Assembly: GCA_024742495.1 (NCBI GenBank)
Contig: JANSYJ010000003.1
Coordinates: 496,001-560,000 of the forward strand
DNA length: 64,000 nucleotides
DNA from: Bacteroidota bacterium
GTDB taxonomy: Bacteria > Bacteroidota > Bacteroidia > Flavobacteriales > Schleiferiaceae
Direction of reading: 5' to 3'
Shown here: one piece after another, positions 14,256-29,214 of the stretch
How the letters are laid out: every line of letters begins with the position of its first letter
How positions within the stretch are numbered: the stretch's first letter is position 1
Position numbers and translations under genes: made by a program
The notes under the pieces: generated by a model
What the model saw: only the letters and a program-made list of their open reading frames with translations
Databases searched by the model: none
What the model was told of the DNA's origin: nothing

Positions 14256-15659
14256 ATGCGAATGGAAGACACCATCTGTGCTTTAAGCACCGCTCCGGGG
14301 ATGGGAGCTATTGCGGTTATACGATTGAGTGGTAAGGAGACTTACCCCGTAATTAATCGCATTTTCAGAGGCTATTCAAAGCGTCATCAATTAGAGGGAT
14401 CAAAGGAATACCAAAGTGTATTGGGATCTATATACGATGAAGATCAGCTGGTAGATGAAGTAATGCTCACGCTGTTTAAAGGTCCACAATCCTATACCGG
14501 TGAGGATGTAATAGAAATTGCTTGTCATGGCAGCACTTATATCCAAGAAAGAATTTTAAGGCTGCTCAACAAGGAAGGCATTCGACTTGCCGATCCTGGG
14601 GAATATACCTTGAGGGCTTTTATTAATGGCAAGATGGACTTATCGCAAGCGGAGGCCGTTGCCGATTTAATTTCCTCAGAAAATCAAGCTTCGCATCAAA
14701 TTGCATTGCAGCATTTGAGAGGTGGTATTTCCAAGGAGATAAGAGAATTACGGGCAGAGTTGATTGATTTCGTTTCCTTAATAGAGTTGGAACTCGATTT
14801 CTCAGAAGAAGATGTGGAATTTGCTGATCGCTCGAAATTTTTAGAATTGCTCCATCGCATTCAAGCGGTACTAAACAGTTTAATAAGCTCTTATGATACG
14901 GGTAATGCTATAAAAAGCGGAGTGCCAGTGGCCATTGTTGGGGCGCCAAATGCTGGGAAATCAACCTTGCTTAACACCCTGCTAAAAGATGACAAAGCGA
15001 TAGTCACTGAAATTGCTGGAACTACCCGTGATGCCATCGAGGATGAAATTCAAATTAATGGCATTAGCTATCGATTTATAGATACCGCGGGTATCCGTGA
15101 AACCGACGATATGGTAGAATCGATTGGTATTCGAAGAACTTATGAAAAGGTAGAGCAAAGCGACTTGGTGCTCTTCCTCTTTGCTGCCGATCGTTTGCAA
15201 GAGCCCTCTGGATGGCAAGCGCTCAAGGAGGAATATCAATCCATAAAGGAAAAAGCTCAAGATCGTAAGTTCTTGTTTTTGATAAATAAGCAGGAAATGC
15301 TACCGACCCTAAGAACGGAGGAAGAGCAATACTTAAATAGTTTAAAACCTTTATTTCTCAGTGCCAAGGCGAAAGAAGGCATTCAGGAATTACAGGACAA
15401 AATTGGTTCCTTTTACCGCTGGGGCGATTTGGCTGCTAGTCAGAATATTATCACTAATGTCCGTCATTTAGATGCTTTAAAGAAAAGCCTTGATCAAGTT
15501 CAAGTGGTGATGGACAATCTAGAAGCTGGTATTAGCGGTGACCTTCTTTCCATCGACATCCGCACTGCCCTCAGCGAATTGGGCAGTATCATTGGAGAAG
15601 TAGATGTAGATAAAGACATCCTTGGGAATATTTTTGGGAAGTTTTGTATCGGGAAATAG
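14256..15659 (+). CDS. mnmE: tRNA uridine-5-carboxymethylaminomethyl modification GTPase MnmE
   Basis: 467 residues. The N-terminal formyl-THF-binding domain (DTICALSTAPGMGAIAVIRLSG) is followed by helical domains, an inserted G domain with GAPNAGKST (about 229-237), TAGIRE and NK, and the C-terminal FCIGK motif essential for the family. With MnmG it modifies U34 of tRNAs. The ATG at 14262 (MEDTICA) is an equally good start. It is transcribed divergently from accC across a 265-base spacer. Confidence 0.97.
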   Translation: MRMEDTICALSTAPGMGAIAVIRLSGKETYPVINRIFRGYSKRHQLEGSKEYQSVLGSIYDEDQLVDEVMLTLFKGPQSYTGEDVIEIACHGSTYIQERILRLLNKEGIRLADPGEYTLRAFINGKMDLSQAEAVADLISSENQASHQIALQHLRGGISKEIRELRAELIDFVSLIELELDFSEEDVEFADRSKFLELLHRIQAVLNSLISSYDTGNAIKSGVPVAIVGAPNAGKSTLLNTLLKDDKAIVTEIAGTTRDAIEDEIQINGISYRFIDTAGIRETDDMVESIGIRRTYEKVEQSDLVLFLFAADRLQEPSGWQALKEEYQSIKEKAQDRKFLFLINKQEMLPTLRTEEEQYLNSLKPLFLSAKAKEGIQELQDKIGSFYRWGDLAASQNIITNVRHLDALKKSLDQVQVVMDNLEAGISGDLLSIDIRTALSELGSIIGEVDVDKDILGNIFGKFCIGK

Positions 15660-15803: not shown

Positions 15804-17063
15804 CTAAAACCTAAAAGCTCTTGACTTAAGCTCACACTCCGCATTGGAAATACCATGTTTTTTGGCAACACTCCTCCAGTGTTTCACGGCAGTGCTAACT
15901 TCTTCCATAATTTGGTGTGCATGCGCTTCTTCTAATCTAAAGTATTTAGTCACTTCCATCGCTAAATCTAAGTCCAATGCATTGTCACTATCCGAAATAT
16001 TTAAACTAAGTCCTGTTGCTGTCTCCACAGGGTTGATATCGTAGGCTGGAGATAAGATCCATCCTTCGGGCTTTAAAATAAAACCGTGATTTCGCAAATG
16101 GTCATCGGTATTCGATACACTAATGCTAAAAACAATTCTTCTCCAAAGCTCTTCCAAATCAGCTTCTACATTTCCTCCGTTGCTAGTCAAAAAATCAACA
16201 ATATCCAGGTAACTGCCTCCATCTTGGCCGTCAACAAAACCAAGCATGGTCATGGCGGAAGCGAAATGAACTCTCCCTCCATCCGGTGTGCGATCGAAGC
16301 GTTTGGTTAAAAAAGTGTGGTGTTTGCTCGAATACTGTTGTGCCTTACATTCTGCCATGCTAATTCCGGCAGCTTTCGCCAAGTCATATGTCACCATTTC
16401 CCAGGCTCCAATATTAAATTGATCATTGCCACTCGGGAATTTTGCAATCCATAGATGGCCTTGTTCATCAACTATACTTGCTTTTGGTCTTGCACCACCC
16501 AAAGAACTACCCGGAGCCACTAAGATATTTAACCATTTAAGGTAGTCTGGGTCATCCACCACATTTTCATTTTCCAAGTTTAAACTGGCTTGTTCCAAGT
16601 CCCGAATAGATGCCCATGGCGGAGATGCCATTTCTTTATTGTTATCTAAAAATGGTCCATCTGCAGCCAGTTTAAAACGAAGTCCCCCGATCCGATGGCC
16701 GTCATATACGCCCAATAAATAATCCGTTTCACACAGATTCTCTTCTCTCCTTCCTTGCTTTCTGGCTAATGCAGCTTCCCTTCTGCGCATTAAAACTCTG
16801 CCCCACCTGTCTGGTGAAGAATCGAGGAAAGCGCCAAAGTTTGTTTTATCATCTTTTAGAAAGTGCAGGCCCGAATACAAGTCCAGTTCTGGATCTAAAA
16901 CTTGTGCAAAGCCCTGCTTAAGCCATTCTTGCTCATATTCAAATGAAAAGACCTCTTTTCCGCGTAAGAGCTCAGAATGAAGTACGCCCATTAGTTTAGG
17001 ACCGCGTAATTCGCGCCAATCGGCATAAACATATAAATCTCTTCGTGAGCTTTTTTTGCTCAT
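15804..17063 (-). CDS. hipA: HipA-family serine/threonine kinase toxin (first pair)
   Basis: 419 residues. The N-terminal HipA_N-like region covers about 10-110. A glycine-rich ATP loop GSSLGGARPK lies at 185-194 with IAKFPS at 206-211. The catalytic loop SNTDDHLRNHGF is at 317-328 and the Mg-binding aspartate D342 lies in SPAYDINP. All kinase residues seem intact. Members phosphorylate translation factors such as aminoacyl-tRNA synthetases; the target here is unknown. ATGA-type 4-base overlap with the antitoxin gene upstream. Its 3' end is repeated elsewhere in the island (17681-17700 and 18978-19097). Confidence 0.92.
   Translation of the reverse strand: MSKKSSRRDLYVYADWRELRGPKLMGVLHSELLRGKEVFSFEYEQEWLKQGFAQVLDPELDLYSGLHFLKDDKTNFGAFLDSSPDRWGRVLMRRREAALARKQGRREENLCETDYLLGVYDGHRIGGLRFKLAADGPFLDNNKEMASPPWASIRDLEQASLNLENENVVDDPDYLKWLNILVAPGSSLGGARPKASIVDEQGHLWIAKFPSGNDQFNIGAWEMVTYDLAKAAGISMAECKAQQYSSKHHTFLTKRFDRTPDGGRVHFASAMTMLGFVDGQDGGSYLDIVDFLTSNGGNVEADLEELWRRIVFSISVSNTDDHLRNHGFILKPEGWILSPAYDINPVETATGLSLNISDSDNALDLDLAMEVTKYFRLEEAHAHQIMEEVSTAVKHWRSVAKKHGISNAECELKSRAFRF
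15811..15830. repeat. 20-bp direct repeat, left copy (inside hipA 3' end)
   Basis: CTAAAAGCTCTTGACTTAAG, identical to 17681-17700. It codes for the last residues of HipA and lies just inside the gene's 3' end. Confidence 0.85.
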
Positions 17064-17383
17064 GATGGCTTTTTTCTTTTAGGAGCACGCTTAGCTGTTT
17101 CCAAATTTGCATCCTGTAATTTCCTTCCTAATTCATCATCCTTGGCTACAAGTAATAAATCCTTCTCTAGACCTAGGACTTTTAAAACATTTAAATACTG
17201 ACCAACCCCAACACCAGAATGACCTTGCTCGATCTTCACTAATGTACTCCGCCCCATCCCAGCACGTTCGGCCACTTGGCTAGTACTTAATTTTCTTCTT
17301 AGTCGCGCCAGGCGTAGATTCTCGCCAAGTTCTTCCAATATTCGCTGAATTCTTGGTAGTAAAGTCGGAGTCTTATTCGCCAT
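17060..17383 (-). CDS. hipB: HipB-like XRE antitoxin (first pair)
   Basis: 107 residues. A helix-turn-helix of the Xre/Cro type covers about 17-73 (LGENLRLARLRRKLSTSQVAERAGMGRSTLVKIEQGHSG). A basic, probably disordered tail (KRAPKRKKPS) follows and may help to bind DNA or toxin. It overlaps hipA by 4 bases and is expected to repress the operon and neutralise the kinase. An imperfect palindrome and a -7 box lie immediately upstream. Confidence 0.9.
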   Translation of the reverse strand: MANKTPTLLPRIQRILEELGENLRLARLRRKLSTSQVAERAGMGRSTLVKIEQGHSGVGVGQYLNVLKVLGLEKDLLLVAKDDELGRKLQDANLETAKRAPKRKKPS

Positions 17384-17401
17384 AATGTTTTATTATTAAA
17401 A

Positions 17402-17451
17402 CAAAATTAGGCAAAATTGTCTATTTAAACGCACATTATACATTGATGTGC
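17402..17451 (-). promoter_or_regulatory. Promoter and putative operators of the first hipBA pair
   Basis: On the minus strand a -7 box TAATTTTG lies at 17409-17402, 19 bases before the hipB ATG. An imperfect palindrome AGGCAAAATTGTCT (17409-17422) and an inverted repeat GCACAT-N9-ATGTGC (17431-17451) overlap or precede it. These are plausible autoregulatory sites and differ from those of the second pair. Confidence 0.45.
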
Positions 17452-17726: not shown

Positions 17727-18938
17727 TTATAAATTGCTGTATTTACTCCTCAGTGTTTGATAGATTTCTTGAGCTTCTTTTAGGCTTATACCGCAACCCG
17801 AAGCTAACTGAACGAGATCCGGATGCGCGCCGGAATTAATAAAGGGAATAAGCAAGCCTAAAAATTTATTTATTCGATCGCGTTCCTCATTTGAAATGTT
17901 AGACTCATTAGAATCGGAAAAGTGTTTTTCGTAAGGATTAATCGACAAATCATGTTTCAAAATACGATTCATAGTGTTGACCATACTCAATCCAACTGAA
18001 TAATCTTCCTCTATAGGCACAGTAAGTCCAGCTTTACATAGCTTATTGGTCATGGCCTTAAAACCTTCTTGGGTCATTGCATATCTGAACAACAGATTCT
18101 CTTTTTCAATAAAATATGTTGCCGCAAAATGGGGTGATCTGTTCCATTCATCTAAGGAGAACTGAAAAATCCCCTTATTCCATTGAACCTTAAAATGCTC
18201 CTTTACTTTGAAGGTTTCTAAATCCGTAGTTTCTTGTTCTGCAACATGATGCTTTAAAACAGTATTTCCCCCCATTACCTTTGGCATTTCTTGTCCATAG
18301 AGAAGCATGAAATAAGGAAAAGGATTTGCATAAACAGATTTCATAAAACTTTCATCATCATCCACATCGGTAAACACCTCTGTTGCATAAATGTAAATAT
18401 CATCTACATCAAAGGATAAGAAAGGGGCTATAAGACCAAAGGTCTGCCAGCATTCACCATTATTTCCCAGCAGTAAGAAATAGAGAGAATGCTCATGACC
18501 GTTTTTACAATTGACTTCTATTCCAGGAGAATAAACCAGGAGTTCATCTCCTAGAATTTCATCTCGCATAATAAAGAATTCGTCTTCAGGACGCTCTACG
18601 ATTCTACCAAACACATACCTCCATGGGGTTGATAATTGAAATTTTAAATACTCCTGTTCTTCTTTGGGAAGTTGATTAAGCATTGGATGGTGAAGGTATT
18701 TATTGAGTAAGCCATCTTTCATTAATGCCTTTCCGATAATAAACTCTGCACTTGCTTTGGGAAAAAATGCTTTAGGCATCTCTCTTATTATGTGCTTGTA
18801 CTTTCTTTCTGCCAGTTCAATTTTCTTTGTTACCCCTCCCCTTGCAGCGATGAAATGCATTAAGAAATTGTCTATTGCTCGCTCACATAGTTGACTATGT
18901 TTGACACACAATGCTTTGATATTCGAATATTCTTTCAT
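17727..18938 (-). CDS. Hypothetical protein, 403 aa, in the hipBA region
   Basis: I do not recognise this protein. It is soluble and acidic with no signal peptide or membrane helix. Visible parts: a helical N-terminus (1-70), a middle section rich in aromatic and acidic residues (about 90-300, with a run DVDDIYIYATEVFTDVDDD), and a C-terminal section (about 340-403) whose end looks like a small helix-turn-helix (LASGCGISLKEAQEIYQTLR). It is preceded by a TACCTTTA box and the sequence AAAAAGG before the ATG. It lies between two copies of hipA 3'-end sequence, in the orientation of the first hipBA pair. It is probably expressed, but its role is unknown. Confidence 0.65.
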   Translation of the reverse strand: MKEYSNIKALCVKHSQLCERAIDNFLMHFIAARGGVTKKIELAERKYKHIIREMPKAFFPKASAEFIIGKALMKDGLLNKYLHHPMLNQLPKEEQEYLKFQLSTPWRYVFGRIVERPEDEFFIMRDEILGDELLVYSPGIEVNCKNGHEHSLYFLLLGNNGECWQTFGLIAPFLSFDVDDIYIYATEVFTDVDDDESFMKSVYANPFPYFMLLYGQEMPKVMGGNTVLKHHVAEQETTDLETFKVKEHFKVQWNKGIFQFSLDEWNRSPHFAATYFIEKENLLFRYAMTQEGFKAMTNKLCKAGLTVPIEEDYSVGLSMVNTMNRILKHDLSINPYEKHFSDSNESNISNEERDRINKFLGLLIPFINSGAHPDLVQLASGCGISLKEAQEIYQTLRSKYSNL

Positions 18939-18977: not shown

Positions 18978-19097
18978 TTATAAAGGTACTTGATATGCGC
19001 TGGACTTAAGCTCACACTCGGCATTAGAAACACCATGTTTTTTGGCAACACTCCTCCATTGTTTCACGGCAGCGCTAAATCTTGCTATGTTCGGTTC
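18978..19097 (-). pseudogene. Remnant of a further hipA gene (C-terminal end only)
   Basis: Translated on the minus strand this gives …AAVKQWRSVAKKHGVSNAE and then CELKSS, followed by a new tail and a TAA stop at 18978-18980. That closely matches the HipA C-terminus at 15804-15900, and about 75 bases are nearly identical (19002-19077 against 15822-15897). Upstream the frame closes with a stop at 19098-19100, so only the last 40 codons or so remain. Confidence 0.8.
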
Positions 19098-19132
19098 TTA
19101 GTCAATTCAACAAAATCGAACTAGTGCAAATA

Positions 19133-19150
19133 TGATGCATTTATCCATCA
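19133..19150. promoter_or_regulatory. Putative HipB operator 1 (TGATG-N8-CATCA)
   Basis: TGATGCATTTATCCATCA, an inverted repeat of 5 bases with an 8-base spacer, upstream of the second hipBA pair. Same 5-8-5 layout as the E. coli HipB operator (TATCC-N8-GGATA). Confidence 0.7.
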
Positions 19151-19173
19151 CTAAATAGATTTATCATTAGTTA

Positions 19174-19191
19174 TGATGATTATATACATCA
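19174..19191. promoter_or_regulatory. Putative HipB operator 2 (TGATG-N8-CATCA)
   Basis: TGATGATTATATACATCA, 41 bases from site 1 start to start, about four helical turns. Confidence 0.7.
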
Positions 19192-19223
19192 CTTATTTTT
19201 TAGGTAAACATTTTATAATCCTT

Positions 19224-19231
19224 TATATTTG
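19224..19231 (+). promoter_or_regulatory. -7 promoter box of the second hipBA pair
   Basis: TATATTTG, exact TAnnTTTG, 38 bases before the ATG at 19270. Confidence 0.55.
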
Positions 19232-19247
19232 ATGTGATTTTACATCA
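19230..19247. promoter_or_regulatory. Putative HipB operator 3, overlapping the -7 box
   Basis: TGATGTGATTTTACATCA, 56 bases after site 2. It overlaps the last two bases of a -7 box TATATTTG (19224-19231), so occupation would block transcription of the second hipBA pair. Confidence 0.75.
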
Positions 19248-19269
19248 TTAAAGCTTAATTTAAGTTATT

Positions 19270-19620
19270 ATGAAGGAATTTTCCACCATAGAATTAAGGC
19301 GAATGACCGATGACATGGTCATTAAGGCCATTGGTGAATACATACGATCAGTACGTTTAGACAGGAATTTAACCCAAGCGCAATTAGGGGATCGCTCAGG
19401 TGTACATAGAACAACCATCCGTGACCTTGAATTGGGAAAAAGAAGTACACTACTGACCCTAATACAAGTATTGCGTTCATTGGACCAATTGCAAACTCTG
19501 AAAAACTTTAAGATTTCAAAGGACTTGAGTCCACTTGAGCTAGCCAAACTCGAAATCAATGAAAGAAAACGAGCAAGCGGTTCAAAGTCTGAACAGAAAC
19601 CTAAAACATCAGACTGGTAA
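19270..19620 (+). CDS. hipB: HipB-like XRE antitoxin (second pair)
   Basis: 116 residues. An Xre-type helix-turn-helix spans about 12-72 (AIGEYIRSVRLDRNLTQAQLGDRSGVHRTTIRDLELGKRS). A basic C-terminal tail follows (KRASGSKSEQKPKTSDW). The stop TAA shares one base with the toxin ATG, typical of a coupled antitoxin-toxin pair. Three matching inverted repeats upstream are its likely binding sites. Only the fold is shared with the HipB at 17060-17383. Confidence 0.9.
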   Translation: MKEFSTIELRRMTDDMVIKAIGEYIRSVRLDRNLTQAQLGDRSGVHRTTIRDLELGKRSTLLTLIQVLRSLDQLQTLKNFKISKDLSPLELAKLEINERKRASGSKSEQKPKTSDW

Positions 19621-20921
19621 TGATTAAATCTGCATACGCCAATATTTGGGGCAAACGTGTGGGTGCAGTTACCTGGAATGAGAATGATGGAACAGCATCA
19701 TTTGAGTATGATCCTGACTTCATTGAAACTGGATTAGACTTATCCCCTATTATGATGCCCTTGGGTGAGTCTCGCAATTACAGATTCCCGGATCATCGCA
19801 ATACAACTACGTTTAAAGGTTTGCCTGGGATGCTCGCTGATGTGCTACCAGACAAGTATGGAAATGCACTCATCAATCAATGGCTTGTAAGGCACAACAG
19901 GCCGGCCAATAGCATTAATCCCGTTGAAACCCTGAGCTTCATTGGTGAAAGAGCCATGGGGGCCTTGGAGTTTGAGCCTATTGTACCTAAGGTGAAAAGC
20001 CAGTCCCTTAAGCTAGAAATGAATGATTTGATTGACATTACTTCAAAGATTCTTTCTGGTAGGCAAGACTTACTCACCAAACTCCAGCCAGATGAGGAAA
20101 AAGCCTTGCAAGCAATCTTAAAAATCGGAACATCTGCCGGAGGCGCGCGAGCAAAAGCATTGATTGCATTTAATAAGGAGACCGAAGAAATAAGAAGTGG
20201 CCAAGCTAATGCTCCTAAGGGATTTGAACATTACCTGATTAAGTTTGACGGAATTGAAGATGAGCAGTTTGGTACATCCAGTGGCTATGGTCGAGTTGAA
20301 ATGGCCTACTACAAAATGGCCCTTGATGCAGGAATTGAAATGATGGAAAGTGACTTACTCGAAGAAAACGGCCGGGCACACTTCATGACCAAAAGGTTTG
20401 ACCGTGTTCATGGAAAGGGTAAAATTCATGTCCAGTCTTTCTGTGCATTGCGTCACTATGACTTCAAAGACATTGATATTTACTCCTATGAAGACTTGTT
20501 TGAGACAATGAGGCTTCTTGTACTGCCCTACCCTCAAGCAGAACAGCTATTCAGGAGAATGGTGTTCAATGTTATTGCTCGAAACTGCGATGACCACACC
20601 AAGAATTTCGCCTTCACCATGGATAAAAATGGAGAATGGTCACTTTCCCCAGCCTTCGACCTATGTCATGCCTATCGACCATCCAGTACATGGGTAAGTC
20701 AACATTGCTTGAGCCTTAATGGTAAAAGGAACAACATTGAAAGATCAGACTTGCTCGAGGTGGCCAAAAAAATGAATATCAAAAAAGCCAGTGAGATTAT
20801 TGATCAGGTTGACCAGGTGATTGGGAGATGGAAAGAATATGCTGATGAGCAGAAAGTTGATCCAGACTTAAGGGATGCTATCGACAGTACACTTGTTAGA
20901 ATGAATAAGGCCAAAGCATGA
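19620..20921 (+). CDS. hipA: HipA-family kinase toxin (second pair)
   Basis: 433 residues. A HipA_N domain covers about 5-110 (ANIWGKRVGAVTW, FKGLPGMLADVLPDKYGN). The ATP-binding GTSAGGARAK is at 170-179, the catalytic loop RNCDDHTKNF at 321-330 and D347 in SPAFDL is the metal ligand. The kinase centre appears complete. It belongs to a different HipA subgroup from the first pair, so the two are independent systems, not a recent duplication. It is followed by a 640-base stretch with decayed sequence. Confidence 0.93.
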   Translation: MIKSAYANIWGKRVGAVTWNENDGTASFEYDPDFIETGLDLSPIMMPLGESRNYRFPDHRNTTTFKGLPGMLADVLPDKYGNALINQWLVRHNRPANSINPVETLSFIGERAMGALEFEPIVPKVKSQSLKLEMNDLIDITSKILSGRQDLLTKLQPDEEKALQAILKIGTSAGGARAKALIAFNKETEEIRSGQANAPKGFEHYLIKFDGIEDEQFGTSSGYGRVEMAYYKMALDAGIEMMESDLLEENGRAHFMTKRFDRVHGKGKIHVQSFCALRHYDFKDIDIYSYEDLFETMRLLVLPYPQAEQLFRRMVFNVIARNCDDHTKNFAFTMDKNGEWSLSPAFDLCHAYRPSSTWVSQHCLSLNGKRNNIERSDLLEVAKKMNIKKASEIIDQVDQVIGRWKEYADEQKVDPDLRDAIDSTLVRMNKAKA

Positions 20922-21518: not shown

Positions 21519-21576
21519 TTTCAACTCACACTACATTCCTGAATATGGTAAAACGAATCTTTGGTTCTTATGAAAG
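21519..21576 (+). repeat. 58-bp duplicated leader, copy 1 (before the AraC-type regulator)
   Basis: Identical base for base to 34916-34973. It starts with TTTCAACTCACACTACATTC and ends inside the second and third codons of the regulator (ATGAAAG). It includes a -7-like box AATCTTTG at 21556-21563. Confidence 0.9.
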
Positions 21577-22142
21577 CTGAGCAAATACTACACATCAAAA
21601 ACATGGTTTGTCCACGCTGTATTATGGCTGTGAAGGACATTCTTACCCAACTCGAAATTCAATATCAGGATGTTCAATTGGGGCAAGTAATTGTTTCAGA
21701 TCAGATAGATCAGTATAAACTGCTAACACTTGACGACAAATTAAATGCGTTGGGATTTGAGTTGCTTGAACCAGGAAAATCTGCATTGATTTCACAAATA
21801 AAAAGCGTGATTATTGATCAGGTGCATCATAAAAATGAACCGTTTTCTATTAACTTTTCTGCTTTAATTTCGGATAACCTGCACCATGAATACACATACT
21901 TGAGCAGGCTGTTCTCTTCTGTTGAAGGGATAACCATTGAGAAATTCATCTTGCTTCAAAAAATTGAAAAGGCCAAAGAGTATTTGATTTACAACCAAAT
22001 GACCTTATCGGAGATAGCCAATGAAATGAACTATAGCAGTGTAGCGCATCTTTCTTCTCAGTTCAAGAAAGAAACGGGAATGACCCCTACTCAATTCAAA
22101 GGTCAAACGAGCCACCACAGAAAGCCCTTAGATAAGCTCTAA
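21570..22142 (+). CDS. AraC-family regulator with N-terminal CxxC metal-binding head
   Basis: 190 residues from the ATG at 21570. The in-frame TTG at 21561 is rejected because it lies inside the probable -7 box. The N-terminus (residues 5-70) resembles an HMA domain with NMVCPRC, placing C14 and C17 as a metal site. The C-terminal part (about 95-180) is an AraC helix-turn-helix (YLIYNQMTLSEIANEMNYSS, then HLSSQFKKETGMTPTQFK). It probably senses Cu+ and activates the copper genes that follow. It precedes copA by 88 bases and shares its 58-bp leader with the Fur-type regulator. Confidence 0.88.
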   Translation: MKAEQILHIKNMVCPRCIMAVKDILTQLEIQYQDVQLGQVIVSDQIDQYKLLTLDDKLNALGFELLEPGKSALISQIKSVIIDQVHHKNEPFSINFSALISDNLHHEYTYLSRLFSSVEGITIEKFILLQKIEKAKEYLIYNQMTLSEIANEMNYSSVAHLSSQFKKETGMTPTQFKGQTSHHRKPLDKL

Positions 22143-22152
22143 GCGTAATTTC

Positions 22153-22179
22153 ATAAACCAAAGTCAATATTGTGTAACA
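22153..22179 (+). promoter_or_regulatory. Putative metal-regulator operator before copA
   Basis: ATAAACCAAAGTCAA followed by TATTGTGTAACA. It matches 24808-24834 in 23 of 27 positions. It ends 20 bases before a -7-like box CATTTTTG (22200-22207), where the -33 region would lie, as for an AraC-type activator. Confidence 0.65.
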
Positions 22180-22230
22180 GCCTTTGATGCCTTCCTTCTC
22201 ATTTTTGTAGTGTCAACAAAATAGAAAGAT

Positions 22231-24483
22231 ATGGCAGCTGCGAACGTAATAGAAAGTAAAGACGATCAGAAGGCAAGAGCATCTATCAGTAATAGTTTTC
22301 CAGTCACTGGAATGACCTGTGCTGCCTGTGCATCTAGTGTAGAGTCTATTTTAGGTCACACCGATGGCGTAAAAAATGCCAGTGTCAATTTTGCCTCTTC
22401 ATCTGTGTTGGTCGAATACGATGCAACTCTTGTACCTGAAGACTTGCAGAAGGCCCTACAAGCAGTAGGGTATGATTTGATTGTAGATGCAGAAGATCCG
22501 GCAGAAACACAGGAAAATCTGCAAAAACAGCATTATCAGGATGTTAAACAACGAACCATTTGGTCAGCCATTTTAACTCTGCCCGTATTCATCATAGGCA
22601 TGTTTTACATGGAATGGATTCCAGGGCGATGGATTTCAATGCTATTCAGTATACCGATCCTTTTCTGGTTTGGCCGCAGCTTCTATAGCAACGCTTGGAA
22701 GCAAGCCAAGCACGGAAAAGCCAATATGGATACCTTGGTTGCCCTCAGTACCGGAATTGCTTTTGTTTTCAGTGTGTTCAATACATTTTTTCCTGATTTC
22801 TGGCACGATAGGGGCATTCACCCACATGTTTACTATGAAGCAGCTACGGTCATTATCACTTTCATTTCACTAGGTAAATTGCTTGAAGAGCGTGCCAAGT
22901 CGAATACCTCATCAGCCATTAAAAAATTAATGGGGTTACAGCCTAAAACACTAAAGGTTATCCAAAATGGTGAAGAAGTAGAGATGCTTATCTCTTCTGT
23001 CCAAAAAGGATATACCATCGTGGTAAAACCTGGGGAAAAAATACCCGTAGATGGGGAAGTTTCTGAAGGTAGCTCATTTGTGGATGAAAGTATGATTACG
23101 GGCGAACCCGTTCCTGTAGAAAAATCCAAAGGTGCCGAAGTATTTGCAGGAACGGTCAATCAAAAGGGTAGTTTTCAGTTTATCGCCAAAAAGGTGGGTG
23201 GAGAAACTTTGCTTTCACAAATAATTAAAATGGTGCAGCAAGCACAAGGAAGCAAAGCACCTGTTCAGAAATTGGTTGATAAAATTGCTGGTGTATTTGT
23301 ACCGGTCGTAATCACAATCGCAATAGTCACATTTATCACCTGGATCATCATAGAGGGTGATGACGCTTTAACACATGCACTGCTCACGTCTGTGGCGGTA
23401 TTAGTAATTGCGTGTCCTTGTGCTTTAGGTTTAGCCACACCAACGGCCATTATGGTAGGCATTGGTAAGGGAGCTGAAAACAATATCCTAATCAAAGATG
23501 CCGAGAGTCTGGAATTAGGACATCAAACCAATGCCATTGTATTGGATAAGACAGGTACGGTAACAAAAGGTAAACCGACCGTCACTAATTGGCATTGGGA
23601 AAATAGTAATGACTACCACAAGCAGGTGCTTTTAGCCATTGAGTCTCAGTCGGAACACCCTTTGGCTGATGCAGTGGTAGTCGGGCTAAAAAAGGATGGA
23701 CTTAAACCTGAAAGTATCAAGGATTTTCACAGCATCACTGGAATGGGTGCAGAAGCCCAATCACCAGATGGTGAAAAGTTCTACATTGGTAATCAACGAT
23801 TGCTAAATAGCAAAGACATCACGCTTTCATTGGCTACAGAAAGGCAGGCCAATGAATGGAGAGACAAGGGAAAAACAGTAATCTTTTTTGCCAACCAGTT
23901 GACCGTCCTGGCTATTCTTGCCATCGCTGATGAAATAAAGGAGAGTTCATCAGCAGCCATTAAAACGTTGCAAGATCGCGGCATAGACGTGTATATGCTT
24001 ACGGGCGATAATGAACAAACGGCAAAAGCTGTCGCTAAACAAGTAGGAATAGAGCATTTCAAAGCCGAAATGATGCCTTCAGACAAGGCCGATTTCGTGA
24101 AGGAATTACAAGAGCAAGGAAAAGTAGTTGCTATGGTGGGTGACGGAATCAACGATTCCCATGCACTTGCCCAGGCAGATGTGAGTATAGCGATGGGTAA
24201 AGGATCAGACATTGCCATGGATGTGGCTAAAATGACCCTTATCACGTCCGACTTAGAAGCCATTCCCAAAGCCTTGAAATTATCCAAACTTACAGTACAA
24301 GGCATCAGGCAAAATCTGTTCTGGGCGTTTATTTACAACATCATCGGTATTCCAATTGCCGCAGGTGTATTGTTTGCCTTCAACGGATTCTTGCTTGACC
24401 CAATGATTGCAGGAGCAGCCATGGCTTTTAGCTCTGTATCAGTAGTAGCCAATAGTCTGCGGCTTAAAGCAGCAAAACTTTAA
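22231..24483 (+). CDS. copA: Copper-translocating P1B-type ATPase CopA
   Basis: 750 residues. One HMA domain has GMTCAACAS (C30, C33). Eight membrane helices are expected, with the P1B-1 motif CPC at 395-397, TGEPVPVEK in the actuator, DKTGT with phosphorylated D439, SEHPLA and GDGIND. It exports Cu+ (or Ag+) from the cytoplasm at ATP cost. The hinge reads [11 protein letters not shown] instead of the usual GDGINDAPAL. It follows the AraC-type regulator and precedes a CopZ-like protein. Confidence 0.96.
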
Positions 24484-24511
24484 TTCATGTTTAATTCAAA
24501 ATAATCATAAA

Positions 24512-24721
24512 ATGAAAACACTAAAATTCAAATCAAATATTAATTGTACAGGTTGCCTATCTAAAGTTTCACCAGTACTAAACGAAGAAAAAAACATTCA
24601 AAAGTGGGATGTCAACCTAGAGCATGATGACCGTATTCTCACCGTTGAAACGGATAGTCTAAGCTCAGATGAAATCAAACAAACCGTGCAAAAGGCGGGC
24701 TTTAACGCTGATGAAATATAA
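24512..24721 (+). CDS. Small HMA-domain protein, CopZ-like copper chaperone
   Basis: 69 residues covering a single ferredoxin-like HMA domain. The metal motif is NCTGC (C12, C15) in place of the common MxCxxC. It presumably carries Cu+ to CopA or buffers it in the cytoplasm. It lies 28 bases after copA and probably shares its transcript. A short spacer with the second copy of the shared motif follows. Confidence 0.85.
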   Translation: MKTLKFKSNINCTGCLSKVSPVLNEEKNIQKWDVNLEHDDRILTVETDSLSSDEIKQTVQKAGFNADEI

Positions 24722-24807
24722 GATTCACACATTCAAATGATCTCAGGCCCTTGTTCAATTTCCCTGAATAAGGGCTTTCATATTCAAGGGGCAACGAACC
24801 GAATTAT

Positions 24808-24834
24808 ATAAACCAAAGTCAAATTTCTGTAATA
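24808..24834 (+). promoter_or_regulatory. Putative metal-regulator operator before the HYC_CC_PP/cusA operon
   Basis: ATAAACCAAAGTCAA followed by ATTTCTGTAATA, the partner of 22153-22179. It ends 19 bases before the -7 box at 24854-24861. Confidence 0.65.
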
Positions 24835-24853
24835 CATCCCAATTATGAATTCT

Positions 24854-24861
24854 TACCTTTG
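24854..24861 (+). promoter_or_regulatory. -7 promoter box of the HYC_CC_PP/cusA operon
   Basis: TACCTTTG, exact consensus. The GTG start codon lies 5 bases downstream and an ATG 11 bases downstream, so the mRNA would have almost no leader. Confidence 0.6.
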
Positions 24862-24866
24862 CTTTT

Positions 24867-25286
24867 GTGAAAATGGTCATCTCTATATCGCTCGCATTCC
24901 TAATGTTGGTTTCTAACATCGGGTTTGCTATGAATACGCACTTCTGTGGTGGTGAAGCGGTAGAGACTACTTTTACCCTGGGTTTGGGAAATCCTAGCTG
25001 TGGCATGGAAGATATGGAACAGGGATGCGAGAACGTACCATCTGAAGATGAGCAGATCAAAGCTAAGCCTTGCTGTGAAAATCAGCATCAAGTCATACAA
25101 ACGGATGACATTGCTAAAACTCAACCCTCTGCATCTGTAATTAGTCCCTTTTTCTTTGCTTCCTTTGTTCAGGTTTTTATACAACCTCTGTTCTTTGTTG
25201 AAAAAGGGCAAACAAAATATCCAGAATATCCCCCTCCCTTCTTTGAAAGAAACGTTCATGTTCTTTTTCAAACCTTCTTGATTTAA
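24867..25286 (+). CDS. HYC_CC_PP family exported protein
   Basis: 139 residues from GTG (137 from the ATG at 24873). It has a signal-peptide-like N-terminus (VISISLAFLMLVSNIGFAMN), then the three landmarks of this small Bacteroidota family: an HFC motif right after the signal, CC in KPCCEN near residue 72 and PPP in YPPPFF near the end. A second hydrophobic stretch lies at about 90-112. The family is regularly found beside heavy-metal efflux genes. Function is unknown; periplasmic copper binding through Cys/His is a reasonable guess. It opens the operon containing the CusA-type pump. Confidence 0.85.
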   Translation: MKMVISISLAFLMLVSNIGFAMNTHFCGGEAVETTFTLGLGNPSCGMEDMEQGCENVPSEDEQIKAKPCCENQHQVIQTDDIAKTQPSASVISPFFFASFVQVFIQPLFFVEKGQTKYPEYPPPFFERNVHVLFQTFLI

Positions 25287-25293
25287 GCCATTA

Positions 25294-25388
25294 ATACAAT
25301 TTGAAGCTCTAGGTTAATAGATCGCTGAGCACTTTGGCATTTCCTGCCATTGAACAATTCTTTTCTGTTCAATCAAATTCAATTGTAT
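25294..25388 (+). promoter_or_regulatory. Nested inverted repeats before cusA
   Basis: Outer arms ATACAATT (25294-25301) and AATTGTAT (25381-25388) enclose the hairpins GGCA-N4-TGCC (25336-25347) and TTGAACA-N9-TGTTCAA (25350-25372). The outer arm ends one base before the cusA ATG, so folding could hide the translation start. Confidence 0.45.
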
Positions 25389-25389
25389 T

Positions 25390-28300
25390 ATGCTCAATAA
25401 AATCATAAAATATTTCTTAGAGAATAAGTTGGTCACTGTTCTCGTCCTTACAGGTTTTGTAGCCTGGGGAATTGTAACTGCTCCATTTGGATGGCAAGTG
25501 GGTGCATTGCCTTCTGACCCTGTTCCGGTAGATGCCATTCCGGACATAGGAGAAAACCAACAAATCGTTTTTACCCAGTGGGCTGGCCGCTCGCCACAGG
25601 ATATTGAGGATCAAATCTCTTATCCTTTAACTACCTACTTATTAGGTATCCCAGGAGTAAAATCTATTAGAAGTTCATCCATCTTCGGTTTTTCCAGTAT
25701 CTATATCATCTTCTCAGAAGATGTAGAGTTCTATTGGTCACGATCCAGAATACTCGAAAAACTCAACTCTTTACCTTCTGGATTACTCCCTGATGCCGTC
25801 CAGCCTGCGTTGGGACCAGATGCTACCGCCTTAGGTCAGGTATATTGGTACACCATAGAAGGAAGGGATAAAAACGGAAATCCAACTGGCGGTTGGGATT
25901 TGCACGAAATCCGCACAGTTCAGGACTTCTATGTGAAGTATGGTTTAAATGCAACAGAAGGCGTTTCAGAAGTTGCTTCCATTGGCGGTTTTATTCAGGA
26001 ATACCAAATTGATGTAAATCCTGACGCCTTGAAAGCCTACAACATCCCCTTGCATAAAGTCATGCAGGCAGTACAAAAATCCAATAAGGATGTTGGTGCT
26101 AAAACCATAGAAATCAATCAGGCTGAATATTTAGTGCGTGGTTTAGGCTATGTCAAGAAAGTAGAAGACATAGAAAAAGCAGTAGTTGCAGTACAAGACA
26201 ATGTGCCTATAAGGATAAAAGACATTGGTGTAGTATCTCTTGGCCCCGCTACAAGACGAGGTATTTTGGACAAAGATGGTGCTGAAGTAGTAGGTGGTGT
26301 TGTAGTAGCTCGATATGGAGCGAATCCCCTGCAAGTCATCAATAACGTAAAGGCTAAAATTAAGGAAATAGCCCCAGGCCTTCCCAAGAAGACATTGGCT
26401 GATGGTAGAGAAAGCCAGCTTACAATTGTCCCGTTTTATGATCGCTCAGAATTGATCTATGAAACCTTAGGTACACTGGAAGAAGCCTTGTCGCTGGAAA
26501 TTCTCATTACCATTCTGGTGGTGATTGTGATGGTATATAACCTAAGAGCTTCATTCCTAATTTCCAGCCTTTTGCCCATTGCCGTACTCATGGTGTTTAT
26601 TGCCATGCGATACTTTGGTGTGGATGCGAATATTGTAGCACTATCAGGAATAGCCATTGCTATCGGAACGATGGTGGACTTAGGGATTATTCTTTCTGAA
26701 AATATCATCAAGCATATTGATGAAGCCCCACCGGGTCAAAAACTAATTGATACCATTTACAATGGAGCATCAGAAGTGGCAACTGCGATATTAACGGCTG
26801 TCTCTACCACAATTGTAAGTTTTATCCCTGTATTCACCATGCAGGCAGCAGAAGGCAAACTATTTGGTCCCCTGGCATTTACAAAGTCATTTGCTCTTTT
26901 GGCTGCATTGATCGTTTCATTGCTGATTTTGCCAACACTGGCACATTGGTTTTTCGGCTTTAATATCAAAAACAAGTTCTTAAAAAAGTACGGTCATTAC
27001 GGCTTAGTACTTATTGGAATTGTAAGCCTCTTTATTGGACAGGTTTGGACGGGAGTGTTGCTGATTCTATTTGGAATTATCGGTATTGTAAAAAACATTG
27101 AACAGCTCAAAAATGCTTCACTTCCGACTGTAATAAAGTTCTTACTCAAGTATGCGGAATTAATCATTGTCCTGTTGGGAGTCATTTGGTTGCTGGCAAA
27201 ATATTGGTTACCACTAGGTGCATCTAAATCCCTTCTCCTCAATTTTGTTTTTGTTGCCCTATTGGTCGGTGTTATACTCGGTGCGTTTAGGCTATTAGAG
27301 TTTCAATACAAAAAAATCCTCACTTGGTGTTTAAATAACAAAATCAAGTTTTTGATTATCCCGACTATACTCATCCTATTAGGTGCAAATATTTGGCTTG
27401 GCTTCAATGCTGTTTTTGGTTTTGTTTCCAAGGGTTTTGAGAAGGTTGGATGGAATTTGGATCAGACCAAAGGATGGTCAGCCATGTCCCATACCTTTCC
27501 CGGGATAGGCAAAGAATTTATGCCTTCTCTGGATGAAGGAAGCTTTCTGTTGATGCCAACCTCAATGCCTCATTCCGGAGTAACATTCAATCGAAAGATA
27601 GTAGGCCAATTGGATATGCTACTTACCAGTATCCCCGAAGTAGAGCTAACGGTTGGTAAACTCGGACGGGTAGAATCAGCCCTTGACCCAGCCCCTATTT
27701 CTATGTATGAAAACATTATCAATTACAAGTCAGAATACATCCTAAACAAAAAAGGACATAGACAAAGGTTTAAGGTGGACAAAGACAATCGGTTCATTAC
27801 TATTTCGGGAGATGCCCTTACTAACAAAGAAGGTTTGGAACAGGGCATAGAAGCGACTGCATTAATTGCAGATGATAATGGCGAGTATTACCGCAATTGG
27901 CGTGATCACATTCAATCTCCCGATGATATTTGGAATGAGATAGTAAAAGCCACCAAACTACCAGGTGTCACCTCAGCACCTAAGCTTCAACCGATTGAAA
28001 CTCGGTTGGTCATGCTCCAAACAGGGATGCGAGCTCCTATGGGAATCAAGGTATATGGCCCTGACCTGAAAACAATAGAGAACTTTGGATTGCAGTTGGA
28101 GAACGTTCTAAAAGGAGTGCCTTCTGTAAAGGCAGAAGCAGTATTTGCGGATAGAATTGTAGGTAAACCCTACATACACCTCAACATAAACAGGGATGAA
28201 ATCTCACGATATGGATTGAATATAGAAGATGTTCAGCGGACCATAGAAACTGCAATTGGTGGAATGAAAATCACTTCCACTGTAGAAGGTCGAGAAAGAT

Positions 28301-29214
28301 TTCCTGTCAGGGTACGCTATCCAAGAGAATTGAGGGATGACCCTGAAGCATTGGGTAAAATACTAATGCCTACACCCACAGGTGCTCAAATTCCATTATC
28401 TCAAATCATTGACTTTGAATATGTAAGGGGCCCACAAGCGATAAAAAGTGAAGAAACCTTCTTGGTTGGTTATGTGCTGTTTGATAAACGTGCTGGTTTC
28501 TCAGAAGTAACTGTGGTAAACGATGCTCAACAAATGATTCAGGATAAAATTGATTCAGGTGAACTGACCGTACCTGCTGGTGTGAGCTATAAGTTTTCAG
28601 GGAGTTATGAAAATCAGGTGAGGGCAGAAAAACGACTTTCTATCATTGTTCCTTTGGTATTAGGCATTGTATTTCTCATTCTTTATTTCCAGTTCCGTTC
28701 GGTATCTACTTCATTAATGGTATTTACAGGAATTGCAATGGCTTTTAGCGGTGGTTTTATCATGCTATGGCTTTATGGACAAAATTGGTTTGCAGACTTC
28801 TCAGTCTTCGGCACAAATTTTCGTGATTTATTCCAAATACACACCATTAATCTGAGTGTGGCCGTTTGGGTTGGGTTTATTGCACTCTTTGGAATAGCAA
28901 CTGACGATGGGGTATTGATGGCTACTTATCTGGATCAAAGCTTTGATAGAAATAAAACAGATAATATAAAAGGAATAAGAGCGGCAACAGTGGAAGCAGG
29001 ACAGCGCAGAATAAAGCCAGCAGTAATGACAACTGCCACGACCATCATTGCTTTACTACCTATCCTCACTTCAACAGGAAGAGGTTCAGATATTATGATA
29101 CCCATGGCATTGCCTGCTGTTGGAGGGATGCTATTTGCTGCCATCACTTATTTCATCGTTCCGGTGATTTACTGCTGGAGAGAAGAACGTAAAATTTCAA
29201 AAGGCCAATCATGA
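25390..29214 (+). CDS. cusA: CusA-type heavy-metal RND efflux pump (Cu/Ag class)
   Basis: 1274 residues with the RND layout: 12 membrane helices, two large periplasmic loops and repeated symmetry. The TM4 motif SGIAIAIGTMVDLGIILSEN (about 419-438) is of the monovalent Cu/Ag (HME4) type and lacks the DFG…DG aspartates of divalent pumps. Compared with the about 1050 residues of E. coli CusA it has extra hydrophobic segments around residues 520-680, seen in other Bacteroidota members. It works with the TolC and adaptor proteins encoded downstream. The stop overlaps the TolC gene by 4 bases. Confidence 0.95.
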   Translation: MLNKIIKYFLENKLVTVLVLTGFVAWGIVTAPFGWQVGALPSDPVPVDAIPDIGENQQIVFTQWAGRSPQDIEDQISYPLTTYLLGIPGVKSIRSSSIFGFSSIYIIFSEDVEFYWSRSRILEKLNSLPSGLLPDAVQPALGPDATALGQVYWYTIEGRDKNGNPTGGWDLHEIRTVQDFYVKYGLNATEGVSEVASIGGFIQEYQIDVNPDALKAYNIPLHKVMQAVQKSNKDVGAKTIEINQAEYLVRGLGYVKKVEDIEKAVVAVQDNVPIRIKDIGVVSLGPATRRGILDKDGAEVVGGVVVARYGANPLQVINNVKAKIKEIAPGLPKKTLADGRESQLTIVPFYDRSELIYETLGTLEEALSLEILITILVVIVMVYNLRASFLISSLLPIAVLMVFIAMRYFGVDANIVALSGIAIAIGTMVDLGIILSENIIKHIDEAPPGQKLIDTIYNGASEVATAILTAVSTTIVSFIPVFTMQAAEGKLFGPLAFTKSFALLAALIVSLLILPTLAHWFFGFNIKNKFLKKYGHYGLVLIGIVSLFIGQVWTGVLLILFGIIGIVKNIEQLKNASLPTVIKFLLKYAELIIVLLGVIWLLAKYWLPLGASKSLLLNFVFVALLVGVILGAFRLLEFQYKKILTWCLNNKIKFLIIPTILILLGANIWLGFNAVFGFVSKGFEKVGWNLDQTKGWSAMSHTFPGIGKEFMPSLDEGSFLLMPTSMPHSGVTFNRKIVGQLDMLLTSIPEVELTVGKLGRVESALDPAPISMYENIINYKSEYILNKKGHRQRFKVDKDNRFITISGDALTNKEGLEQGIEATALIADDNGEYYRNWRDHIQSPDDIWNEIVKATKLPGVTSAPKLQPIETRLVMLQTGMRAPMGIKVYGPDLKTIENFGLQLENVLKGVPSVKAEAVFADRIVGKPYIHLNINRDEISRYGLNIEDVQRTIETAIGGMKITSTVEGRERFPVRVRYPRELRDDPEALGKILMPTPTGAQIPLSQIIDFEYVRGPQAIKSEETFLVGYVLFDKRAGFSEVTVVNDAQQMIQDKIDSGELTVPAGVSYKFSGSYENQVRAEKRLSIIVPLVLGIVFLILYFQFRSVSTSLMVFTGIAMAFSGGFIMLWLYGQNWFADFSVFGTNFRDLFQIHTINLSVAVWVGFIALFGIATDDGVLMATYLDQSFDRNKTDNIKGIRAATVEAGQRRIKPAVMTTATTIIALLPILTSTGRGSDIMIPMALPAVGGMLFAAITYFIVPVIYCWREERKISKGQS

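Follow-up and report, generated by a model that had tools for sequence, protein, structure and literature searches.

TGATG-N8-CATCA sites before a Bacteroidota hipBA operon as putative HipB operators

The HipB operators described in the passages cited here are all proteobacterial. In Escherichia coli, HipB binds four operators cooperatively, with HipA as a co-repressor, and the DNA is bent (cited passage of PMC3920265). The E. coli sites were said, in the sequence-only reading of the present DNA, to be TATCC-N8-GGATA, i.e., a 5-8-5 layout in several copies, and four exact copies were indeed found before hipB of E. coli K-12. HipB operator sites of Legionella are reported to be both necessary and sufficient for binding (cited passage of PMC10653801). 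Among the matches listed from the open-access literature, neither a Bacteroidota HipB operator nor a TGATG-N8-CATCA operator was found. This report is focused on three TGATG-N8-CATCA sites before a hipBA pair in a 64-kb stretch of DNA from a Bacteroidota bacterium (the window, i.e., the whole stretch analyzed). The sites are very probably autoregulatory hipBA operators, bound by HipB dimers and additionally by HipB-HipA complexes. Such operators are ordinary in kind; the half-site and between-site geometry of the present ones are new, as far as the literature was searched.

The hipBA locus and its operator-like sites

The following features of the window are considered.

hipBA1 pair: 15804-17383, minus strand; neighboring pair with recognition helix GRSTLV, unlike that of the window hipB
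Site 1: 19133-19150, strand unassigned; TGATG-N8-CATCA, TGATGCATTTATCCATCA, at frame -137 from the hipB ATG
Site 2: 19174-19191; TGATG-N8-CATCA, TGATGATTATATACATCA, at frame -96, 41 bp after site 1
-7 box: 19224-19231, plus strand; TATATTTG, matching the flavobacterial TAnnTTTG
Site 3: 19230-19247; TGATG-N8-CATCA, TGATGTGATTTTACATCA, at frame -40, 56 bp after site 2
hipB: 19270-19620, plus strand; 116 aa, XRE/HTH_3 antitoxin-repressor
Candidate fourth site, degenerate: 19271-19288, strand unassigned; TGAAGGAATTTTCCACCA, 2 of 10 half-site bases off
hipA: 19620-20921, plus strand; 433 aa, kinase toxin with Couple_hipA and HipA_C domains

The three exact 18-bp sites were confirmed at 19133, 19174, and 19230, where the sequence-only reading had placed them, and they are the only exact copies of the pattern in the window. 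Of all 5-base half-sites, TGATG alone recurs as an inverted repeat (gaps 4-12) in the 260 bp upstream of hipB; the half-site is not the TATCC of the E. coli type. The overlap of site 3 with the -7 box, claimed by the same reading, was also borne out, the first two bases of the site (TG) being common to TATATTTG. The flavobacterial -7 box has the consensus TAnnTTTG and is located at -12 to -5 (cited passage of PMC9723704); transcription would consequently start near 19236, and site 3, spanning approximately -6 to +12, overlaps both the box and this putative start. TAnnTTTG is found exactly at -46 to -39 in 5 of 12 loci of the TGATG class and in 15 of 32 loci of the SRST class, two classes of HipB locus described below, and a sigma-70 promoter scan returned 3 promoters against a shuffle mean of 3.2.

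The hipA gene directly follows hipB, with an overlap of one base with the hipB stop codon. The XRE/HTH_3 domain of HipB is detected above cut-off (PF01381, E 2e-9), and the best-scoring NCBIfam families, TIGR03070 (43.3 bits, cut-off 71.65) and NF007271 (25.6, cut-off 79), remain sub-threshold. In the AlphaFold2 model of HipB (mean pLDDT 78), the recognition helix comprises residues 47-54, in a region reading VHRTTIRDLE (R47, T48, and T49). The top Foldseek matches to this model are a restriction-modification control protein and a Vibrio regulator, and the XRE matches include the HipB structures 9u9g, 4pu7, 8ezt, and 4z5h; HipB structures from Pseudomonas, Shewanella, and Legionella are among the matches, and 4z5h is presumably that of E. 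coli HipB. HipA scores 169.8 bits for HipA_C and 62.4 bits for Couple_hipA, and is a single protein of 433 aa with N- and C-domains rather than a HipBST-type split toxin with a separate HipS. Alignment with E. coli HipA yields the motif pairs SVAGA/SAGGA, IIKLP/LIKFD, TDGHAKN/CDDHTKN, and YDI/FDL, which we take to carry the catalytic Asp, the metal Asp, and the Lys, together with the Ser that is autophosphorylated. The window HipB ends in ...SDW and E. coli HipB in ...LEW, and a C-terminal W is found in 54 of 88 HipBs. In E. coli, Ser150 is the autophosphorylated residue of HipA, and the C-terminal Trp of HipB inserts in HipA (cited passage of PMC10627512). Judging by domains, active-site alignment, and C-terminal Trp, the window HipB and HipA both look intact.

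Cross-talk with the neighboring hipBA1 pair was considered and rejected, as no TGATG-N8-CATCA site at one mismatch or fewer lies near the hipBA1 promoter. An 18-bp palindrome at 17386-17403, TGTTTTAATAATAAAACA, lies two bases before the ATG of the hipBA1 hipB and is possibly an operator of that pair. Further upstream, 14256-15659 is presumably mnmE, named from its translation. The hipBA pairs adjoin the mnmE 3′ end here and in a congener (L012:8-817), which may mark an insertion hotspot; here, hipBA1 and a 403-aa gene intervene between the mnmE end and hipBA. The window was also searched for an island boundary in the form of a duplicated mnmE 3′ end, and none was found at three mismatches or fewer. 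The 403-aa gene between the two hip pairs (17727-18938, minus strand) matches nothing in Pfam or NCBIfam at E 0.001. Downstream, 21561-29214 resembles what we take to be a heavy-metal resistance cluster, with an HMA-type P-type ATPase and a large RND-like pump.

Conservation and array geometry

Searches with the HipA protein identified homologues in 11 of 59 relatives, in 13 of 88 members of the family, and in 82 of 395 phylum genomes; each count includes the genome of the window. Seven loci with HRTT in the recognition helix of HipB, the window included, have HipAs 76-100% identical and carry the sites; they are close relatives, and two of them (L048 and L084) come from the pattern scan. The sequence-only reading had proposed a search for the same pattern before homologous hipBA pairs, and this search was positive: all three sites recur in six of the seven HRTT loci, at spacings of 41 and 54-56 bp. 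Sites 1 and 2 are each present in six, and site 3 is present in all seven (once with one mismatch); L144 retains site 3 alone, as one exact site. At sites 1, 2, and 3, respectively, identity across the seven loci is 1.00, 1.00, and 0.97 for the half-site pairs, a figure that is partly due to selection of sites at one mismatch or fewer, 0.57, 0.51, and 0.70 for the spacers, and 0.43, 0.49, and 0.60 for the flanks. Two of these loci have features of their own. L084 is a metagenome-assembled genome (MAG) labeled Verrucomicrobia whose HipB is 86% identical to the window HipB, suggestive of recent transfer or a binning error, and L048, another Bacteroidia MAG, has a second, divergent hipBA pair (L048:6498-7990) near its TGATG-type pair, in a different order.

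The count of three made by the sequence-only reading holds for exact sites, but it overlooked a degenerate one: a weak fourth site may cover the start codon of hipB, at a distance of exactly 41 bp from site 3. If it is counted, the window array reads 41-56-41. Conservation at this place is partly confounded because it is also protein-coding. Several features of the array are consistent with it and the start-codon site being by-products of descent and coding, with only the E. coli-like within-site layout functional: the fourth site, in codons for MKEFST, has two mismatches in the window, as in five of the seven HRTT loci, and three in L144 and four in L013; furthermore, three of the five locus sets (SKRT, NRST/NRTT/NRWT, and "other") lack the pair of peaks at -40 and +2 in a motif-free palindrome profile, with no peak at -40. 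We consider this alternative unlikely, since that peak pair is present in the other two sets, i.e., SRST (n=33, HRTT locus L144 included; z 10.6 at -40 and 12.5 at +2) and the TGATG class (n=11; z 6.1 and 5.8), frame +2 being over the start codon. In addition, exact TGATG sites span the start codon in L033, L034, and L060, and SRST loci have a 40/41-bp pair distally in 10 of 32 and proximally in 11 of 32. Distances of 40/41 bp between neighboring sites account for 21 of 40 in SRST, 8 of 10 in SKRT, and 10 of 17 in the TGATG class.

Half-sites, recognition helices, and searches by pattern

The loci found by protein number 97, including 16 on plasmids. The exact pattern is present between -220 and +30 in all five HRTT loci (the window and only four others) and in none of the 92 other loci. 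Left out of these counts are L014, whose contig starts inside hipA, and L021, L022, L023, and L146, in which the window HipB has no match; the 92 still include L153, which has an upstream region of only 28 bp, as well as L164 and L178, whose starts are unresolved. All 16 plasmid loci are counted, including L185, L186, L188, L196, and L197, in which no HipA gene is annotated after the HTH gene, and L193, which is without annotation. L043 and L013 are the same record, as are L099 and L012. None of eight further plasmid HipBs has an exact TGATG-N8-CATCA.

Other recognition helices are accompanied by other half-sites, counted at one mismatch or fewer; for SRST and SKRT, the loci used for counting are also those from which the motifs were derived. 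GnATGA-N4-TCATnC is found with SRSTL in 31 of 32 loci (71 sites; the dinucleotide-shuffle mean, from a set of 34 loci not confined to these 32, is 0.6), and TCGnCA-N4-TGnCGA with SKRT in 15 of 20 loci (25 sites; base-shuffle expectation 0.1). TGTTG-N8-CAACA pairs 41 bp apart are found with two Hymenobacter plasmid HipBs with DRAT and, by reading of the printed sequence, TGTTG-N8-CAACA is also present in L162 (NRTTLV) and L167 (NRSTLSQ). A Stutzerimonas plasmid with SRAT has TGCAT-N8-ATGCA, 40 bp apart. The 18-bp two-fold frame thus recurs before HipB genes in several phyla, and its half-site varies with the recognition helix, which supports the earlier proposal of a conserved HipB dimer geometry with changed base recognition.

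A motif-only scan of genome_contigs for two pattern copies 10-40 bases apart gave at least 119 stretches. Among the matches listed, a HipB-like gene lies within 100 bp of a site in 13 of 119 with the broader query set (9 of 119 with a narrower HipB query). All 13 HipBs from these listed matches have [HDN]R[ST]T, and R47 and T49 are invariant in an alignment of 13 HipB sequences (the window plus 12); the DRTT, NRTTLSD, and NRSTVV loci were detected through the pattern. The 13 listed matches comprise five Bacteroidota, a Gemmatimonadota MAG, two Thiothrix, a Cellvibrio MAG, two other gammaproteobacterial MAGs, an unplaced bacterium, and the MAG labeled Verrucomicrobia. In Thiothrix lacustris (L033), a DRTT HipB and both sites are kept, and no long hipA frame was seen after hipB. 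Eight loci with [HDN]R[ST]T (L155-L160, L162, and L167; NRST/NRTT) lack exact TGATG sites; residues outside the motif must therefore matter, and the motif is not sufficient.

Again among the matches listed, the 40-bp (7) and 41-bp (6) spacing bins hold 11 of the 13 HipB-adjacent stretches, and HipB was not detected beside the pair in the two remaining stretches of these bins, L062 and L067. Their pairs (L062:3490-3547 and L067:7127-7185, 40 and 41 bp apart, respectively) are possibly remnants of lost hip modules. The other 106 of the 119 listed stretches are without HipB and represent background, many being coding-DNA repeats; 83 of the 119 listed pairs lie within open frames of at least 120 codons, HipB loci such as L060 included. 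The phylum pattern scan gave 3 of 395 genomes, i.e., the window, L150, and L151; no relative of HipB or HipA was detected by tblastn at L150 and L151, and L069 shares the site pair of L150. In viral_contigs, the pattern scan gave 10 stretches, and no HipB was seen among the open frames surrounding the pairs; several of the pairs fall in coding DNA or repeats; two HipB relatives, both weak, were found there, and the L119 HipB had no match in phages.

The 3.6-Mb genome contains 8 exact copies of the pattern (reversed control, 1), namely the three window sites and five more, each of these five lying within a stop-to-stop open frame of 153-813 codons; the pattern is therefore not scattered through the genome at a random rate. 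A different, unlinked regulator of hipBA could in principle use the sites as its operators, given that upstream pairs can serve other factors and that HipB binding is only predicted. This is very improbable in view of the genome having no other exact copy outside open frames, of the 13 of 119 motif-found stretches (among the matches listed) with a HipB-like gene beside the pair, and of the half-site changing with the HipB recognition helix. Chance or low complexity in AT-rich intergenic DNA, for which the five further copies, all within open frames, might speak, is ruled out with near certainty by conservation of the sites in the HRTT loci and by shuffle controls: no more than one exact site arose in any of 20,000 dinucleotide shuffles of 19080-19269 (11 with one, none with two), and a three-fold repeat of any 5-base word with gap 4-12, as observed, was reached in 0 of 3,000 shuffles (46 reached two).

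Beyond the window, it is conceivable that a large group of HipBs shares an operator scaffold in which the half-site is swapped along with the recognition helix, constituting a readable protein-DNA code. Tentatively, the scaffold would consist of the 18-bp frame and 41-bp dyads. Its most complete form would have two dyads at a distance of 53-56 bp, with the last site perhaps written into the first hipB codons. The code itself, which we advance with some reserve, would read HRTT/DRTT to TGATG, DRAT and some NRTT/NRST to TGTTG, SRSTL to GnATGA, and SKRT to TCGnCA. Helices and half-sites are matched for approximately 60 HipB loci (12 of the TGATG class, 31 SRST, 15 SKRT, and a few TGTTG), so that specificity can be predicted, tested, and rewired. 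If the scaffold is real, its 41-bp dyad would imply an assembly of HipA and HipB on DNA unlike that on the 28-bp pair of E. coli.

Proposed autoregulation and comparison with known HipB operators

By analogy with the HipBs of E. coli and Legionella, which bind broadly similar operators at their own promoters, HipB most likely represses its own operon via site 3, and the upstream pair and the start-codon site add cooperativity; binding, repression, cooperativity, and use of the fourth site are what we infer from the analysis. Each 18-bp site would take one HipB dimer, whose two recognition helices (residues 47-54) would read TGATG in successive major grooves. HipB at site 3 would cover the -7 box and the transcription start and thereby block RNA polymerase. 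The array would consist of two pairs, each with a distance of 41 bp (approximately four helical turns): an upstream one made up of sites 1 and 2, and a second one made up of site 3 and the weak site at the start codon. HipB-HipA complexes could cooperate within or between the pairs. Dropping HipB levels would relieve repression. The recurring spacing, unlike that of E. coli, is relevant to the assembly of HipA and HipB on DNA and, through this assembly, to the setting of expression and persistence by the toxin-antitoxin ratio.

Among the described systems, Legionella pneumophila HipBST has three operators (O1-O3), of which the 18-nucleotide O1 overlaps the predicted promoter, as site 3 does in the window; by contrast, its repeats are of 6 nucleotides, with 53-bp gaps and largely conserved spacers (cited passage of PMC10653801), whereas the window has 5-bp repeats, gaps of 23 and 38 bp, variable spacers, two genes, and a full-length HipA. 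In Caulobacter crescentus, identical inverted repeats at intervals precede hipBA1 and hipBA2, similar to the window, as compared by description (cited passage of PMC7029023); those repeats precede two operons, whereas the neighboring hipBA1 promoter of the window is without a site at one mismatch or fewer. The HipB chains of the Shewanella oneidensis HipB-HipA-operator complex (PDB 4pu3 and 4pu4) match the fold of the window HipB model. With E. coli, the likeness is limited to the within-site layout, since the window spacing is 41-56-41 instead of 28-39-28. The half-site is TGATG in the window and TATCC in E. coli, the recognition helix has HRTT instead of KQAT, and the last window site is degenerate and lies over the start codon, unlike that of E. 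coli. Common to both are multiple 18-bp two-fold sites of 5-8-5 layout upstream of hipBA, one of which starts 39 bp (E. coli) or 40 bp (window) ahead of the ATG, and, if the degenerate site is counted, a symmetric array of four sites.
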